NCBI GenBank assembly: GCA_019694755.1 | Contig: JAIBBI010000026.1 | Location: 1-46,353, forward strand | DNA length: 46,353 nt | Origin: Gemmataceae bacterium | GTDB taxonomy: Bacteria; Planctomycetota; Planctomycetia; Gemmatales; Gemmataceae | Direction of reading: 5' to 3' | Part shown: piece by piece, positions 1 to 24,107 of the stretch | Layout: the number at the start of each line of letters is the position of its first letter | Position numbering within the stretch: the first letter of the stretch is position 1 | Position numbers and translations under genes: made by a program | The notes under the pieces: generated by a model | Told to the model about the DNA's origin: nothing | Database searches by the model: none | Seen by the model: only the letters and a program-made list of their open reading frames with translations

Positions 1-3000
1 GCGCTTCGATGCCGAGCACCTGATTGCTCAGCACCGTCAGAGAATACCGCCCATCGACGAGCGACCCGAACTGCGTCCCCGGCCCGGAAAACGTCAGCGT
101 CACGGTGGTCGCGGTGCCGGTCGTCACGGCGGCCGACAGCGCGACCGTCTCGCTCCCGCGCCGCACCACAAACGCCCCGGCCGGGTCCCCCGCAAACATC
201 ACCGGCTGATCAAACGTCACAGTCAAAGACCGCACCACCGACCGCTGCCCGGACCCGTCCGCCACCTTCATCGAATTAATCGTCGGCGGCGGGGTGATAT
301 ACGCGAACACGTCGTCGAATCCGTTGTAATCCCGGATCACGAGGTCGCTGGCCGAACTTCGGAAGGCAATCACCGACCCCGTGCCGCTGATCTGGAGCGG
401 TTCGAGATAAGTCAGGCCGTTCCCAAACCGCATCGGGTCGTTGACCGATCGCGTCAGCAGCGTCACCTGGCCGGTGAGGCGATCGTACGTGTAAACCTGG
501 TCGTCGTTCCCCATCGGCGGATTCGCCAGCGCCATGCCCGGGGCGAGATCGGTCGCCTTGCTGAACCACGTCACGACCCGGCCGTTGCCGCTGATCGCGG
601 GAAACACGCTGGACCTGTTAGCCCCCACCAGCGGCTGCCCCGGGATGTGACTCACCAATTCGTAGTCCTGGCCGATCCGGTCGTACAGAATCATGTCGGA
701 ATACAGGGAGGTCGCACCGGGCACCGTCTTCGACGCGACGCCGCCGAACGCGATCCATCGGCCGTCGTCGCTGATGTCCGCGGCCCCGCCGCCGACCGCC
801 AGATTCGGGTCGTTGAAGCTCCGGCTGATGAGCGTATTTTCTCCCATCACACGGTCGTAAAGGAACAGGTCCGCGCCGCCGTTGGTATCGATCTGCCCGG
901 CAACGATGTTGGCGGCATTGTGGTTGTGTGCCACCCATCGCCCGTTCTGCGAAATCTTGTAGCCCTGCGAATAACCCCCGCTCGACACGGTATGCCCGGA
1001 GGCCGCGTGCGATACCATTTCGGTCGCGCCGGTCGCGGTATCGAACAGGAACGTCTGGTAGTTTGCGCTGCCCGAGTAGCCGGCTATGACGTCGAACGCC
1101 AGCGAGTAATAAAGGATCGCGCTGCCGTCGCCGCTGATCACCGGTGACGTGCTTTCCTGATTGCTGCTGGTGGTCGCGGAATCGAACCGGTGGTTGACCA
1201 GGACGTTCTGACCGGTCAACCGGTCGAACATGAACAGGTCGTTGCCGAGCAGACCGTACGTATCCGCCCCGTTGCCGTCGACGTAGCCGGGCACGAGGTC
1301 CGTCGCCTGGCTGCGGTAGACGACCCGCCGACCGGCGTCGTCGATGCTCTGTTCCAAGCTGTCGTAATCGGTGTACACGCCGCTGACGCCGTTGCCGCCC
1401 TGACTCAAAGCGCCCGCCGCTCGGCTCACGAGAGTATTGAGACCGGTGACGCGGTCGTAGAGGTAGACGTCGGTGCCCTTGTAATTGGTGATGACTTCGC
1501 CGTTGCCGTCGATGAAGCCCGGGACGAGGAGCGTCGAGCCGCTGCAATAGGCGACGTACCGCCCGTCGCCGCTGATGACTGGATTGGTCGACTGCCCCGC
1601 CGCCGTGGTCAGCGAATCGTGCGTGTGGCTGACCAGCGTGGTGATGCCAGTTTGCAGGTCCTTCAGAAAGATGTTCGATTGCACGCCGGGCGCCATCCCC
1701 GGCACGACGTTGGCGGCCATACTGGCAAACACGGCGTACCGCCCGTCGCGGCTGACCCCGGCACTGGTGGCCGCGCCGCCGGCAGTGACGGACGTCGGGC
1801 CGACCGGCCGGGTGATTGCGGTGTTGATCCCGGTCGCGGTGTCCCAGAGGAAGACATCGCTCGTTCCGTTGTAATCGTTCGCGACGATATCGGCGGCGTT
1901 GTAAGTGAACAGGACATATTGACCGTCCCGTGCGACGGAAAAGTCGTCCGGCCGGGAACCGTAGGCCGTGACCGTCAGCGCCCCGAACCGATGCGTGACG
2001 AGCCGAGTAGTTCCAGTCTGGGTATCAAAATAATAAATGTTCCACGTGTCAAAGCCCGTCGGCACGTAGCCGGTTATGAGGTCCGTGGCCATCGACATGT
2101 ACGCAATGTACCGGCCATTCCCCGACATCTTCACTTGAGCCGAAGAACCATTCGATACCATCCCGGACTGACCCGTCTTGCCGCTAACCAGCTGATACGT
2201 GTCCGTCGCAATGTCGTAAGCAATCGTCTGATAAACGTCGGTGAGCCACCCACTCGCACCCGGGACGAGATTCGTGGAGGTAGTCACCATCGCAATTACG
2301 CCTTTGCCTTCGCTGATCAAGAACGACAGATAAGACCCGTTGCTACCGCGAATTGTCGATCCGATCTCATGCGTCAGGAGCTTGACATCACCGTTCAGAC
2401 GATCGTATCGAAACCAATCCCCGTTCTGCACACCGTTCAGATCTACAAATCCCGATATTAGAGCATTGCCACTAACGACAAAGACGTACCTTCCGTCCGG
2501 ACTAAAGCCCCTCGAAGCAGATTGCCCTGCGGCAACTCCGGGGCCGCCTGACGGCACCTTGGAAATAAGAGTGGAAGCGTTTGACGATATCGAAAAGACG
2601 AATGCATTTCCCGATTCTCCAGTAAACCCGGAAACCAGATTTCGTGCATTGCTCGTAAATGCCACCATCTGTCCATCTAGCGAAAACTCTGCGCCAAAAC
2701 TGCCCCCATTGCCGCCTTTCATCGTGTTAGCGGCGTCGTGCGTCAGGAGTACCGTCTTGTCGATTGCGGTATCGTACAGGAATAAGTTATTAATCATCGA
2801 AGACGATCCGGTCCCAGATGTGTAACCTGAAATGAGGTCCGTTGCGGGACTGGCAAATACAATCTTCCCACCGTCGGAAGAAAACACCGGAGTTCCAGCC
2901 GCCTGATTAGCACCTGTTGAAGCCGTACCTGCTTTTCGAGAAATCAGACTGGTCGCTCCGGTCACGCAATCAAATCGATACAGGTTCAGGCGCCCTCCAT

Positions 3001-3430
3001 TCGCGCCGGGAACGAATCCTGGCACGAGGTTCGTGCCAGTCGACGTAAACGCGACATATCGGCCGTCGCTGCTAATCGTCGCGTCGCTGGCTATTGAGCC
3101 ATTTTCCAATTGATTAGTCGTTCCCGCAGCGCGATTAATCAATGTAGTCACGTTCAGCCAGTTGTCACGGCGATACAAACCTGCTTGCCGGATTCCGGCA
3201 TTGGGAAGTACTCCTAGTTCCTGCGACTCACTGTAGAAAATAAAGTACCTGCCATCTTGGCTCGAAACGCGCTGGGATCCGTCAGCGATTGTCGCACCAC
3301 CCATCGAAGCTGTCGCCGATACAGTTCCGACTGTGGCGAGCGCAGTCAGGCTGCTCGCCGGTAGGTTCCGTCGCTCCAGTTGACACACTTTGAGCATGTG
3401 CGACTTTTCCTGCACAATCGCGGACGCCAT
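1..3430 (-). CDS. Large exported beta-propeller repeat protein (partial, C-terminus outside window)
   Basis: One uninterrupted minus-strand frame runs from an ATG at 3430 to the window edge, giving 1143 residues; the C-terminus lies beyond base 1. A TGA stop lies in frame three codons upstream, so translation starts at 3430 or at Met12 (3397). Residues 18-26 read LERRNLPAS, matching the LExRxxP motif near the N-terminus of many large planctomycete exported proteins. About 16 repeats of roughly 65 residues follow, each centred on a variant of ISxDGRYVAFxS then LVPG and a D-x-F-L-Y-D-x-x-T strand. This is the TolB/PD40-type propeller pattern. After residue ~1045 the repeats give way to an Ig-like beta domain (TFDQPVMF, VTLTFSG). 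The role is unknown; a cell-surface or secreted binding protein is inferred. Sixteen blades would suit two stacked propellers. GC is clearly lower in the N-terminal part. Confidence 0.85.
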   Translation of the reverse strand, partial: MASAIVQEKSHMLKVCQLERRNLPASSLTALATVGTVSATASMGGATIADGSQRVSSQDGRYFIFYSESQELGVLPNAGIRQAGLYRRDNWLNVTTLINRAAGTTNQLENGSIASDATISSDGRYVAFTSTGTNLVPGFVPGANGGRLNLYRFDCVTGATSLISRKAGTASTGANQAAGTPVFSSDGGKIVFASPATDLISGYTSGTGSSSMINNLFLYDTAIDKTVLLTHDAANTMKGGNGGSFGAEFSLDGQMVAFTSNARNLVSGFTGESGNAFVFSISSNASTLISKVPSGGPGVAAGQSASRGFSPDGRYVFVVSGNALISGFVDLNGVQNGDWFRYDRLNGDVKLLTHEIGSTIRGSNGSYLSFLISEGKGVIAMVTTSTNLVPGASGWLTDVYQTIAYDIATDTYQLVSGKTGQSGMVSNGSSAQVKMSGNGRYIAYMSMATDLITGYVPTGFDTWNIYYFDTQTGTTRLVTHRFGALTVTAYGSRPDDFSVARDGQYVLFTYNAADIVANDYNGTSDVFLWDTATGINTAITRPVGPTSVTAGGAATSAGVSRDGRYAVFASMAANVVPGMAPGVQSNIFLKDLQTGITTLVSHTHDSLTTAAGQSTNPVISGDGRYVAYCSGSTLLVPGFIDGNGEVITNYKGTDVYLYDRVTGLNTLVSRAAGALSQGGNGVSGVYTDYDSLEQSIDDAGRRVVYRSQATDLVPGYVDGNGADTYGLLGNDLFMFDRLTGQNVLVNHRFDSATTSSNQESTSPVISGDGSAILYYSLAFDVIAGYSGSANYQTFLFDTATGATEMVSHAASGHTVSSGGYSQGYKISQNGRWVAHNHNAANIVAGQIDTNGGADLFLYDRVMGENTLISRSFNDPNLAVGGGAADISDDGRWIAFGGVASKTVPGATSLYSDMILYDRIGQDYELVSHIPGQPLVGANRSSVFPAISGNGRVVTWFSKATDLAPGMALANPPMGNDDQVYTYDRLTGQVTLLTRSVNDPMRFGNGLTYLEPLQISGTGSVIAFRSSASDLVIRDYNGFDDVFAYITPPPTINSMKVADGSGQRSVVRSLTVTFDQPVMFAGDPAGAFVVRRGSETVALSAAVTTGTATTVTLTFSGPGTQFGSLVDGRYSLTVLSNQVLGIEA

Positions 3431-3595: not shown

Positions 3596-3690
3596 GCCCC
3601 GGCAGAACGCGCCCACCCACCCCGGCCGTCTCTGGCCGGGCTCGCAAAGAACTGCGACTCCACCCGCCACCCCGCTCCCTGAATTCCTCC

Positions 3691-3840
3691 ATTCGTCCAG
3701 TTCGTTTATTTCCTCCCCAGTGGGGTGGGCGATATGCCGAAAACGAATTTGTGAATCACCACCTCGGCGCGCAAGACCTGATCTTTTTGCCACTTGCGCC
3801 CGTTACCACTCCGGCCGAGTGAGAAATGCCTCCGGGGAGG
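3691..3840 (+). repeat. 150-bp dispersed intergenic repeat, copy A
   Basis: This aligns without gaps over its whole 150 bases to the reverse complement of 23914-24063, with about 97 of 150 positions identical by hand count. The first 60 bases have 50 identities and open with a shared 17-base block, ATTCGTCCAGTTCGTTT. A shared palindrome follows (CCCCAGTGGGG here, CCCCAATGGGG in copy B). The last 20 bases have 16 identities, ending CCGGGGAGG in both. Similarity drops to about half beyond each end. It begins 17 bp after the cheB-like stop and runs opposite to the flanking genes. Confidence 0.75.
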
Positions 3841-3857
3841 CAAATCGGCCGCGAGCA

Positions 3858-4877
3858 TTACCGACCAGCCACCCGAGTGCGGATAGCCGGACCGATCTCA
3901 TCGAGGGGTAGGACCTGCACGGCCGCGCCGAGTTCGGCGGCGGCTTTCGGCATCCCGTACACCACGCTCGTCGCCTCGTTCTGGGCGATCGTGTGCCAGC
4001 CGCGCTGCCGGAGGTTCAGCAGGCCTCGGGCCCCGTCGCTACCCATCCCCGTGAGCAGCACCGCGACGCCCGGCCGGGGCCAGTGGGCGGCCACGCTCCC
4101 GAACAGCACGTCCACGCTCGGGCGGTACGGATACTCGGCCGGCTCCACCGAATACTCCCACCGCCGATCCGGCCGGAGCACAAGATGATTGTCGCTCACG
4201 GCCACCACGACCTGTCCGGCCATCGGCGCCTCACCCGCCACCGCGGCCTGTGTCGTCAGCCCCGTTCGGCGGGCCAGCCACGTCACGAACCCGCCCGCGA
4301 AGTCCGGCCCGATGTGCTGCACCACCGCCACCGCCAACTTGGGTGCCGGAGCGAGCGTTTGCAACACCCGGCTCACCGCGTCCGGCCCGCCGGTACTCGC
4401 GCCGATCACGAGCAACTCCGGCAACCGACCAACATCCGGCCCGCTTGCCGCGCTCGAAGAGAACGCTGCTCCGGGCGGGGACGGTTGCTTCTGCCGGCCC
4501 AGCTTCGCCAGCCGATCGAGCAACGGCTGATGGCCGCGCATCTGGCCGTCCGGCCCGAAAGTCGGCGTCTTCACGGCATCGAGACCGCCCGCGCCGAGGG
4601 CTTCGTACACCTTGCCGAAATTCGCGCCGACACTGGCGGTGACAATGAGAATGGGGCACGGCGACTTGGCCATGATCTGCCGGGTGGCTTCGACACCGTC
4701 GACGCCGGGCATGATCAGGTCCATCAGGATCGCATCGGGCCGGTCGGCCGCGGCCTTGCGGATCGCCTCCGCCCCGTCCAGCGCGGACCAAGCCACGGAA
4801 TACCCGGGGACCGATTCCACCACCCGGCGCAACACCGCCTGGGCCAAAGCGAGGTCGTTGACAATGCCGATCCGCAT
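3858..4877 (-). CDS. CheB/WspF-type receiver-methylesterase
   Basis: This is a 339-residue chemoreceptor glutamate methylesterase/deamidase of the normal CheB length and domain order. The receiver domain (residues 1-~115) has phospho-acceptor Asp53 in LMDLIMPG. The methylesterase domain (~152-335) carries the catalytic triad Ser161 (GASTGG), His188 (VQHIG) and Asp281 (GMGSDGA). It removes methyl groups from receptor glutamates and resets adaptation when phosphorylated by the CheA partner. It is the last gene of the seven-gene operon, 6 bp after the CheA-like gene, which is the position of wspF in Wsp operons. In Wsp systems loss of this enzyme locks signalling on. All key residues are present, so it should be active. 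Confidence 0.95.
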   Translation of the reverse strand: MRIGIVNDLALAQAVLRRVVESVPGYSVAWSALDGAEAIRKAAADRPDAILMDLIMPGVDGVEATRQIMAKSPCPILIVTASVGANFGKVYEALGAGGLDAVKTPTFGPDGQMRGHQPLLDRLAKLGRQKQPSPPGAAFSSSAASGPDVGRLPELLVIGASTGGPDAVSRVLQTLAPAPKLAVAVVQHIGPDFAGGFVTWLARRTGLTTQAAVAGEAPMAGQVVVAVSDNHLVLRPDRRWEYSVEPAEYPYRPSVDVLFGSVAAHWPRPGVAVLLTGMGSDGARGLLNLRQRGWHTIAQNEATSVVYGMPKAAAELGAAVQVLPLDEIGPAIRTRVAGR

Positions 4878-22702: not shown

Positions 22703-23767
22703 CTAATCGCCGCCGAAGTCGCCTCCGCCGCCGAAATCTCCGCCTCCGCCGAAGTCGCCACCGCCGAAATCACCCCCACCGCCACCCCAGTCGCCGCCCG
22801 CGCCCATGTCGGACTCGCCACCGAAGTCGCCGCCACCGCCCGAGGTGTCGTAGTCGCCGCCCGCGCTCTGGCCGTCGTACCGGCCGCCGCCGGCGTCATA
22901 GTCGCCACCCGCGCCCTGGGCCGGGCTGTCCCACGGCATACCGCCCCCGGAAGAATGATGGCCGCCGCCGAAGAAGTTGTTGTACATCCAATTTCCGGCC
23001 ATTGCGCCGAACATGCCGCTCATGAAGTTTGACATGAACCCGCCGCCGCCACCCCCGCCGTAGCCGTAGCCAGGGCCGTAACCGGGTCCGCCGCCCATCA
23101 TGTTCTGCCGGCTGCCACCGGTGAACCCGCGAATGAGTGCGAGAAGCACCCAGAAGAACAGGACGATTCCGCCGACGACACAGAGAAAGCCCATGATGGA
23201 CCAGCCTTTTTCTTCTGCTTCCGGTTTGATCACGGGGTCTTTGGCGGCTTTCGCCACTTCGGGAGCACGAACCTCGCGGTGCCGCTCCTGCATTGTCGAG
23301 CGGACCGATTCGAGTCCCTCCAGAAGACCCTTGTCAAACTGTTTTTCGCCGAAGGCGTCGCGTAATTGCGATTGAAGCTTGGACGCGTCGTCGAGCGTAA
23401 AGTCGAGTTGGCGGGTAGCGACGTCCGGTTCGACTTCGACCCGGCCCGGTTTCTTGGTGATCAGGATGAAAAGGCCCGACGCACCGTCGGCCCTGGCCCG
23501 CTCTCGGAGGAGGGCCTCGAAGACCTTGTTCCGCTCGACCTTGTTCTTGCCGGCCTTATCAAGGGCCTTCTGGGTCTCGGGCGAAACCTCGGCAATGGTC
23601 TCGATGACGACCCGCCGCTTGAAACGCGACTCGATGTCGCTGATGATCGTCCTTGCCTCGGAAACCGTCTCCGGGGAGAATAGCTTGGCCCCGTCTCGCA
23701 ACTCGGCGCGGACCGTGCCCGCGAAGAGTATGGCGAGAACGCAGGCGAGCGGCCGAAGGCAGGTCAT
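22703..23767 (-). CDS. TPM-domain membrane protein with Gly-rich tail
   Basis: This 354-residue protein has a signal peptide (~1-21) and a TPM/YgcG-type domain (~25-165: LFSPETVSEARTIISDIE, GLFILITKKPGRVEVEPDV, LQSQLRDAFGEKQFDKGLLEG). A membrane helix follows (~190-213, MGFLCVVGGIVLFFWVLLALI) and a Gly/Asp/Phe-rich tail (~215-354) ending in repeated GGGGDFGG units. TPM proteins include phosphatase-like and photosystem-assembly members; here the tail resembles the low-complexity ends of YgcG proteins. The start ATG 23767 is the first in frame. The tail is repetitive at DNA level (GCCGCCACCGAAGTC-type units), which makes it prone to length variation. Confidence 0.85.
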   Translation of the reverse strand: MTCLRPLACVLAILFAGTVRAELRDGAKLFSPETVSEARTIISDIESRFKRRVVIETIAEVSPETQKALDKAGKNKVERNKVFEALLRERARADGASGLFILITKKPGRVEVEPDVATRQLDFTLDDASKLQSQLRDAFGEKQFDKGLLEGLESVRSTMQERHREVRAPEVAKAAKDPVIKPEAEEKGWSIMGFLCVVGGIVLFFWVLLALIRGFTGGSRQNMMGGGPGYGPGYGYGGGGGGGFMSNFMSGMFGAMAGNWMYNNFFGGGHHSSGGGMPWDSPAQGAGGDYDAGGGRYDGQSAGGDYDTSGGGGDFGGESDMGAGGDWGGGGGDFGGGDFGGGGDFGGGGDFGGD

Positions 23768-24107
23768 GCAGTTCCTCTCATTTCGCTGGACTCCCTACCA
23801 TTATTCTCAATCGGCGCAAAGATGGAAAGCATGTTCCGCCTTCCCGCCAGGGAATTTCCACACTGGGCGAGTCGGTTGTTTCCTGCCCGGCTGGGGTGGT
23901 CGTGGCTGGGATTCCTCCCCGGGAGCATTTTTTGCAGGGGTAAGCCCCGGTACAGTGCAAGGAACTATCAAAAAAGGACTTGTGCGCCGATCCACGGGAT
24001 CCCACATTTGTTTTTGCCGTATCGCTCACCCCATTGGGGACGAATGAAACGAACTGGACGAATAAACGAATCTGCGGCGAAGCCGCGTGGAACGCGCGAG
24101 AAAGCGG
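23768..24107. other. 340-bp intergenic region upstream of the TPM gene
   Basis: No gene is supported here. It contains copy B of the 150-bp dispersed repeat (23914-24063). A GCGGC-TTC-GCCGC hairpin at 24075-24087 (minus-strand sense) lies 20 bp past the lipoprotein stop and may terminate that gene. The promoter of the TPM/hemC unit is probably in 23768-23913, but I see no clear hexamers. Confidence 0.55.
23914..24063 (-). repeat. 150-bp dispersed intergenic repeat, copy B
   Basis: Read on the minus strand this matches copy A (3691-3840) end to end without gaps. The conserved landmarks are ATTCGTCCAGTTCGTTT at the 5' end, the CCCCAATGGGG palindrome, GGCGCACAAG near the middle and CCCGGGGAGG at the 3' end. 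The central ~30 bases (positions 110-130) are not conserved. It runs in the same direction as its flanking genes, unlike copy A. Confidence 0.75.

Follow-up and report, generated by a model that had tools for sequence, protein, structure and literature searches.

A fixed-length 163-bp intergenic repeat family in a Gemmataceae genome, probably mobile and non-autonomous

Two related intergenic sequences in the window (the whole 46,353-nucleotide stretch of Gemmataceae DNA analysed here) are copies of a 163-bp element that almost certainly belongs to a dispersed repeat family, with 15 copies in the source genome. The element is likely to be mobile and non-autonomous, and we consider it probably a dispersed MITE/BIME-type repeat in which the conserved blocks serve as recognition sites on the DNA; that these blocks are recognised by protein, rather than acting as RNA, is the view we lean towards.

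Copy number and genomic setting

Aligned with each other, the two starting copies (A, 3691-3840, plus strand; B, 23914-24063, minus strand) show 64.7% identity without a gap, 83.3% over the first 60 bases and 80% over the last 20, confirming the values of about 65%, 83% and 80% in the initial annotation. Identity falls to 14% at positions 110-130, but the middle is still homologous in register and has not, as was claimed, diverged completely. True element edges were taken from the alignment of 11 copies (Table 1). BLASTN of the whole genome with copy A as query found copy B and 12 other places, all at E < 1e-9, and copy B as query recovered the same family. A profile (R1) built on the 11 full-length copies matched these 11, L010, L011, L005 and a divergent copy (L038/L087), with nothing else convincing. 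The 15 copies comprise 11 full-length, gap-free copies of 163 bp, two 3' variants, one with the 5' part only and one that is divergent. A search for many intergenic copies had been proposed, with a genome devoid of further copies named as the contrary outcome; run on the whole genome, it yielded 13 beyond A and B. Given these 13, and an E of about 3e-12 for the 5' 72 bases alone in a whole-genome search, chance similarity is excluded. Triple clusters of the TTCGT unit match the genome 16 times (some overlapping), against 0 for a reversed-pattern control.

Table 1. Positions of the element, its parts and neighbouring genes in the window
Feature	Position	Strand	Basis
Copy A, full 163-bp element	3683..3845	+	11-copy alignment within the source genome; model match 3684-3843, E 4.5e-37
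Copy A, TTCGT-type unit array (ATTCCTCC, ATTCGTCC, AGTTCGTTT, ATTTCCTC)	3683..3714	+	Near-invariant among copies; triple-TTCGT cluster counts
Copy A, CCCCAGTGGGGTGGG block, containing GGGGTGGG	3715..3729	+	GGGGTG invariant in 11 copies; GGGTGGG common to other genera
Copy A, inverted unit AAACGAAT	3741..3748	+	Each position kept in 9-11 of 11 copies
Copy A, middle inverted pair CGCAAG ... CTTGCG	3770..3798	+	CAA and CTT conserved amid the diverged middle
Copy A, 3' block AAATGCCTCCGGGGAGGCA	3824..3842	+	AAATGC at +134 in 11/11 copies; minus strand forms hairpin and T-rich tail, hairpin intact in some copies only
PD40-repeat protein, other neighbour of copy A	starts 3430	-	Pfam
CheB (receiver and methylesterase), neighbour of copy A	3858..4877	-	Pfam PF01339, PF00072; stop codon 12 bp from the element
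Copy B, full 163-bp element	23909..24071	-	11-copy alignment within the source genome; model match 23911-24070, E 4.4e-29
Copy B, inverted unit AAACAAAT, one change	24006..24013	-	Alignment
Copy B, 3' block AAATGCTCCCGGGGAGGAA	23912..23930	-	Alignment and AAATGC spacing; plus-strand terminator-like match 23906-23922
TPM-domain protein, neighbour of copy B	22703..23767	-	Pfam PF04536; start about 140 bp from the element

The genes adjoining the copies are unrelated (cheB, gcvPB-like, Hsp70-like, a kinase; Pfam supports the neighbour identities of cheB, PD40 and TPM only). As first described, the two starting copies differ in orientation to their flanking genes, copy A being antiparallel to both neighbours and copy B parallel to both of its own, the second of which encodes an unassigned 176-aa protein. 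Flanks common to L001/L005, L003/L004 and L002/L004, via duplications, are what would be expected were the family nothing other than an old segmental duplication whose copies travelled in larger duplicated blocks. This is very improbable, as about ten copies have mutually unrelated flanks, dissimilar apart from short local repeats, and the element edges are sharp.

The left flanks of L003/L004 and window positions 1-3430 (minus strand) encode large similar proteins, of the PD40 type in the window, with the element in front, and at two loci of this group the upstream regions are near-identical, indicating that duplication accounts for the spread of some copies. Another repeat, a 30-bp hairpin (CCCACCCCGGCCATGACTGGCCGGGCTCGCC), occurs at 3613-3646 of the window and upstream of L002, L005, L012 and L008, 37-244 bp upstream of the five copies concerned; it looks like a REP-like family of its own. 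Many copies border, on either side, on arrays of imperfect heptamers, with GACACCC at L003, L006, L008, L009, L012 and L014, and AGCGGAT at the edges of L007, L010 and L011. Elsewhere in the genome L065 and L068 hold inverted arrays, CACGAAGACACGAAG ... CTTCGTGCCTTCGTGTCTTCGTG, between genes; these are unrelated to the 163-bp family.

Element anatomy and fixed length

The element opens at its 5' end with arrayed TTCGT-type units, each 8-9 bases long (ATTCSTCC, ATTCGTCC, AGTTCGTTT, ATTCSTCC), nearly all copies starting with WTTC. The array is followed, in 5' to 3' order, by CCCCANTGGGGTGGG, a short variable stretch, the inverted unit AAACGAAT, a variable stretch containing CGCAAG and CTTGCG, and AAATGCCTCCCGGGAGGCA. 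CCCCANTGGGG and the GGGGAGG block are real and recur among copies, but they are conserved as sequence and not as co-varying base pairs.

The distance from CATTCG to AAATGC is exactly 134 bases in 11 of 11 full-length copies. In diverged copies the middle has a mean identity of 0.438 at zero offset against 0.23-0.30 at every other offset, i.e. about 44% in register compared with 23-30% out of it, so the middle parts are homologous, substituted but free of indels. Counted by parsimony, at least 329 substitutions have accumulated across the 11 copies, with 0 indels. Duplicated flanks in the same genome have accumulated 5 gaps per 88 substitutions, about 1 per 18 (the pairs partly overlap), a rate at which roughly 19 indels would be expected in 11 copies. 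As the 11 were chosen as full-length, and the four other copies differ in length or are truncated, the length constraint is strong but not absolute.

This organisation suggests how the element might work. A 163-bp unit encoding nothing would have spread to roughly a dozen independent sites between genes, carried in part by segmental duplications. Its recognition blocks, held at fixed distances (the TTCGT-unit array, GGGGTGGG, inverted AAACGAAT, CGCAAG...CTTGCG and AAATGCCTCC), would be read by a mobilising enzyme and/or a host protein, and the bases between them would drift. We infer that the copies in this genome moved by transposition and that the conserved blocks bind a protein.

Coding potential and RNA structure

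Of the 11 copies, 10 keep one reading frame open, as might be expected of a short coding sequence or an in-frame insert. Such an origin is scarcely credible, since no codon-position signal was found (differences are even across positions, with no third-position excess in any pair) and genes called by codon score lie next to nearly all copies rather than over them.

The fixed length of the element would also suit a structured RNA (a small RNA or one resembling a riboswitch) present in many copies, its ends conserved and its middle variable. Folding of the related g30 elements is indeed stronger than that of shuffles (mean z -1.7 and -2.5), and their unit pairs co-vary. Copies in the source genome behave differently: their mean folding energy (z -0.2 and -0.4 against dinucleotide shuffles) is like that of random pieces of the window (-0.15), paired cells in the named helices amount to 85.5% compared with 85.2% in shuffles, and two-sided changes in these helices number 1 against 1.2 expected. 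Neither an Rfam match to the element nor a promoter-like site at copy A was found. We regard a structured RNA as quite unlikely. For the source genome, coding sequence and folded RNA were both rejected on the codon-position, fold and covariation tests, and the small RNA suggested by the initial annotation is not supported there, covariation being absent and folding on both strands no better than that of shuffled sequence.

Position at gene 3' ends

On the minus strand the sequence of the 3' block is TGCCTCC..GGAGGCA and then ATTTCTC, an intrinsic-terminator-like hairpin 8-63 bp past a stop codon. The stop codon of an antiparallel gene faces the element 3' end at 8-63 bp in 11 of the 14 copies with a near right-hand neighbour, and in 26 of 37 when the source genome is pooled with relatives (one-sided P about 0.01), the genes in these counts being codon-score calls and not annotation. 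The tail is richer in T on the minus strand (4.6 of 8) than on the plus strand (1.9), and QMITE2 is known mainly in 3' untranslated regions (PMC10969869). Judged on sequence, a role of the element at gene 3' ends is possible, and were transcripts to stop at the 3' block, the element would amount to a mobile modifier of gene ends. That it is a domesticated, REP/SPRITE-like gene-3'-end element, retained for a 3' block that terminates or protects the incoming gene's transcript, is nevertheless unlikely. Of the 11 copies, only four have an intact, strong hairpin and at least three have lost it, with no compensating changes, and copies B, L007 and L012 are not placed after a gene in this way; the 5' array and the fixed 134-base spacing would, moreover, be left unexplained.

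Mobility and relatives in the taxonomic family

The reading of the element as a mobile repeat with recognition blocks draws on both the source genome and its relatives. The 11 source-genome copies show no terminal inverted repeats (TIRs) beyond a loose TTnCCTCC and no target site duplication at any offset; an 11-bp direct repeat at L003, the only edge case, adjoins a duplicated flank and was not counted. No transposase was recognised in the 1.5-kb flanks read. A link to tyrosine (RAYT/IS200) transposases was considered and rejected, as the five Y1 genes of the genome (G000) lie on contigs free of element copies and those inspected are flanked by other repeats. L143 and L148 hold Y1 (RAYT-like) transposase genes with REP-like repeats of their own, e.g. 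GGTCGGTCCTTCGGACC.

By direct DNA similarity the element reaches no other genome and is private to its own at that level. The R1 profile, however, gives weak matches in two family members (one with E 0.0085), and relatives in the family have elements built on this plan (ATTCGTNNCA units, GGGTGGG, inverted unit) in multiple copies. The pattern TTCGT..GGGTGG..ACGAAT has 33 matches in 95 family genomes, 8 of them in the source genome, against 2 for a reversed control, and three other genera carry the plan at 25, 14 and 8 copies in single genomes. One of the two members matched by R1, G029 (g30), has its own family, with at least 12 closely similar copies and 25 profile matches (a few overlap on opposite strands). 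Its elements, near-fixed in length (90-92), contain TTCGTTYCA units, GGGTGGGTGTCTG, TGRAACGAAT, a CTGTAAGT...ACTTACAG pair and a further direct unit; in several copies both sides of a unit pair have changed, so that the bases differ but the fold-back or dyad symmetry persists. A model built from G029 (R2) matched 8 elements in G095, 14 in G099, 2 in G025 and one each in G096, G098 and G012, and none in the source genome; the matched elements outside G029 carry the unit ATTCGTTGCA and then an inverted unit TGCAACGAAT. The shared plan and weak profile match suggest that the source-genome and g30/g13 families may have a common ancestry. Searches of plasmids, phages, viral contigs and named genomes found no relevant relative: around the single viral-contig pattern match the other parts of the element are missing, and a Desulfobulbus match is a different TTCGT array.

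In genera g13/g26 several cores lie inside MITE-like elements with 14-bp TIRs and perfect 8-bp target duplications. The copies of group A (G095, G025, G012) have the ends GGCNTGGTTCAAAA ... TTTTGAACCATGCC, and perfect 8-bp duplications, read from the alignment, at L165 (TATAGATG), L179 (AGATTATC), L166 (TCCAAATT) and L169 (TTGGATCA). G095 has in addition a 271-bp element with the group A TIR and the duplication GGCATTTC, and an 890-bp element with group A ends (L225 2504-3393), 14-bp perfect terminal repeats and a 7-of-8 duplication. The open reading frame of the latter encodes 79 aa and is HTH-regulator-like, with no Pfam match and no transposase seen; this gene was discarded as a general partner, being absent from the source genome. 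Distant relatives occur in G098 and G097. Group B copies, also in G095, have the same core with different ends, indicating that the core resides in more than one type of transposon-like carrier. Two group B elements of G095 (L172, L191) seem to be inserted into GCCG-TAA-ACGGC palindromes with TAA duplication, an apparent insertion into terminator-like hairpins.

The core (TTCGT-unit array, GGGTGGG, inverted unit, further direct unit and rigid spacing) could conceivably be a portable recognition cassette with varied carriers across genera, a proposal to which we give a rather low probability; within one genome it does occur in MITEs with different ends (groups A and B of G095). If the proposal is true, the match between direct and inverted units, kept despite change in the unit, would suggest that the unit array or its fold-back is read by a factor, of the host or of the element, not yet described. 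The target duplications in the relatives offer a handle for tracing the mobilising enzyme. The initial annotation had offered a constrained element, either a MITE-like unit or a protein-binding array, beside the small RNA; this part of its interpretation stands, given the many intergenic copies and the relatives that hold the same core within elements bounded by TIRs and target duplications, whereas the RNA part is not supported in this genome.

Comparison with known repeat classes

The source-genome element is multi-copy, short, non-coding, intergenic and transposase-free, like prokaryotic MITEs (Correia, ERIC, QMITE2, BrickBuilt), which are described as short, non-coding, multi-copy, strictly or mainly intergenic and transposase-free (PMC4596501, PMC10969869); BrickBuilt also has tandem units inside, as here (PMC4596501). 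Unlike those MITEs, its copies have neither TIRs nor target duplication and its length is rigid despite a diverged interior, although the g13/g26 relatives do show the terminal hallmarks. Strict MITE membership is not claimed for the source-genome copies, as these two defining features were looked for and are absent.

REP/BIME sequences (GTAG and CGTC families) are likewise extragenic and built of short units in alternating orientation, the CGTC class having no linked transposase (PMC3733652), but the unit here is ATTCGTNNCA-like without a GTAG tag, and the Y1 transposases of the genome are flanked by other repeats. A CGTC REP is defined by a CGTC tag, a stem of 8-9 bp starting with A/T, a loop of 4-5 nt and a CCA tail (PMC3733652); in the present units CGTC is followed by CCCAGTGGGG, a 4-bp G+C stem. 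A GTAG/RAYT REP has a GTAG-tagged hairpin flanking a Y1 gene, and the elements are absent from the contigs of the five Y1 genes. The pneumococcal BOX, RUP and SPRITE repeats are also modular and intergenic, one of them terminator-like (PMC3049150, PMC10969869), but have other modules in another host and are set apart by description. Lack of TIRs and target duplication, together with subterminal palindromes, would fit a palindrome-associated element of the IS200/IS605 type, a class that also has a fixed short target 5' of the element; nearly all copies begin with WTTC, and neither an empty site nor matching transposase ends were found. Most likely the family is new and taxonomically narrow, no published description having been found, and represents a familiar kind of bacterial repeat, to which it adds a family with a fixed-length core and a plan common to several genera and carriers.
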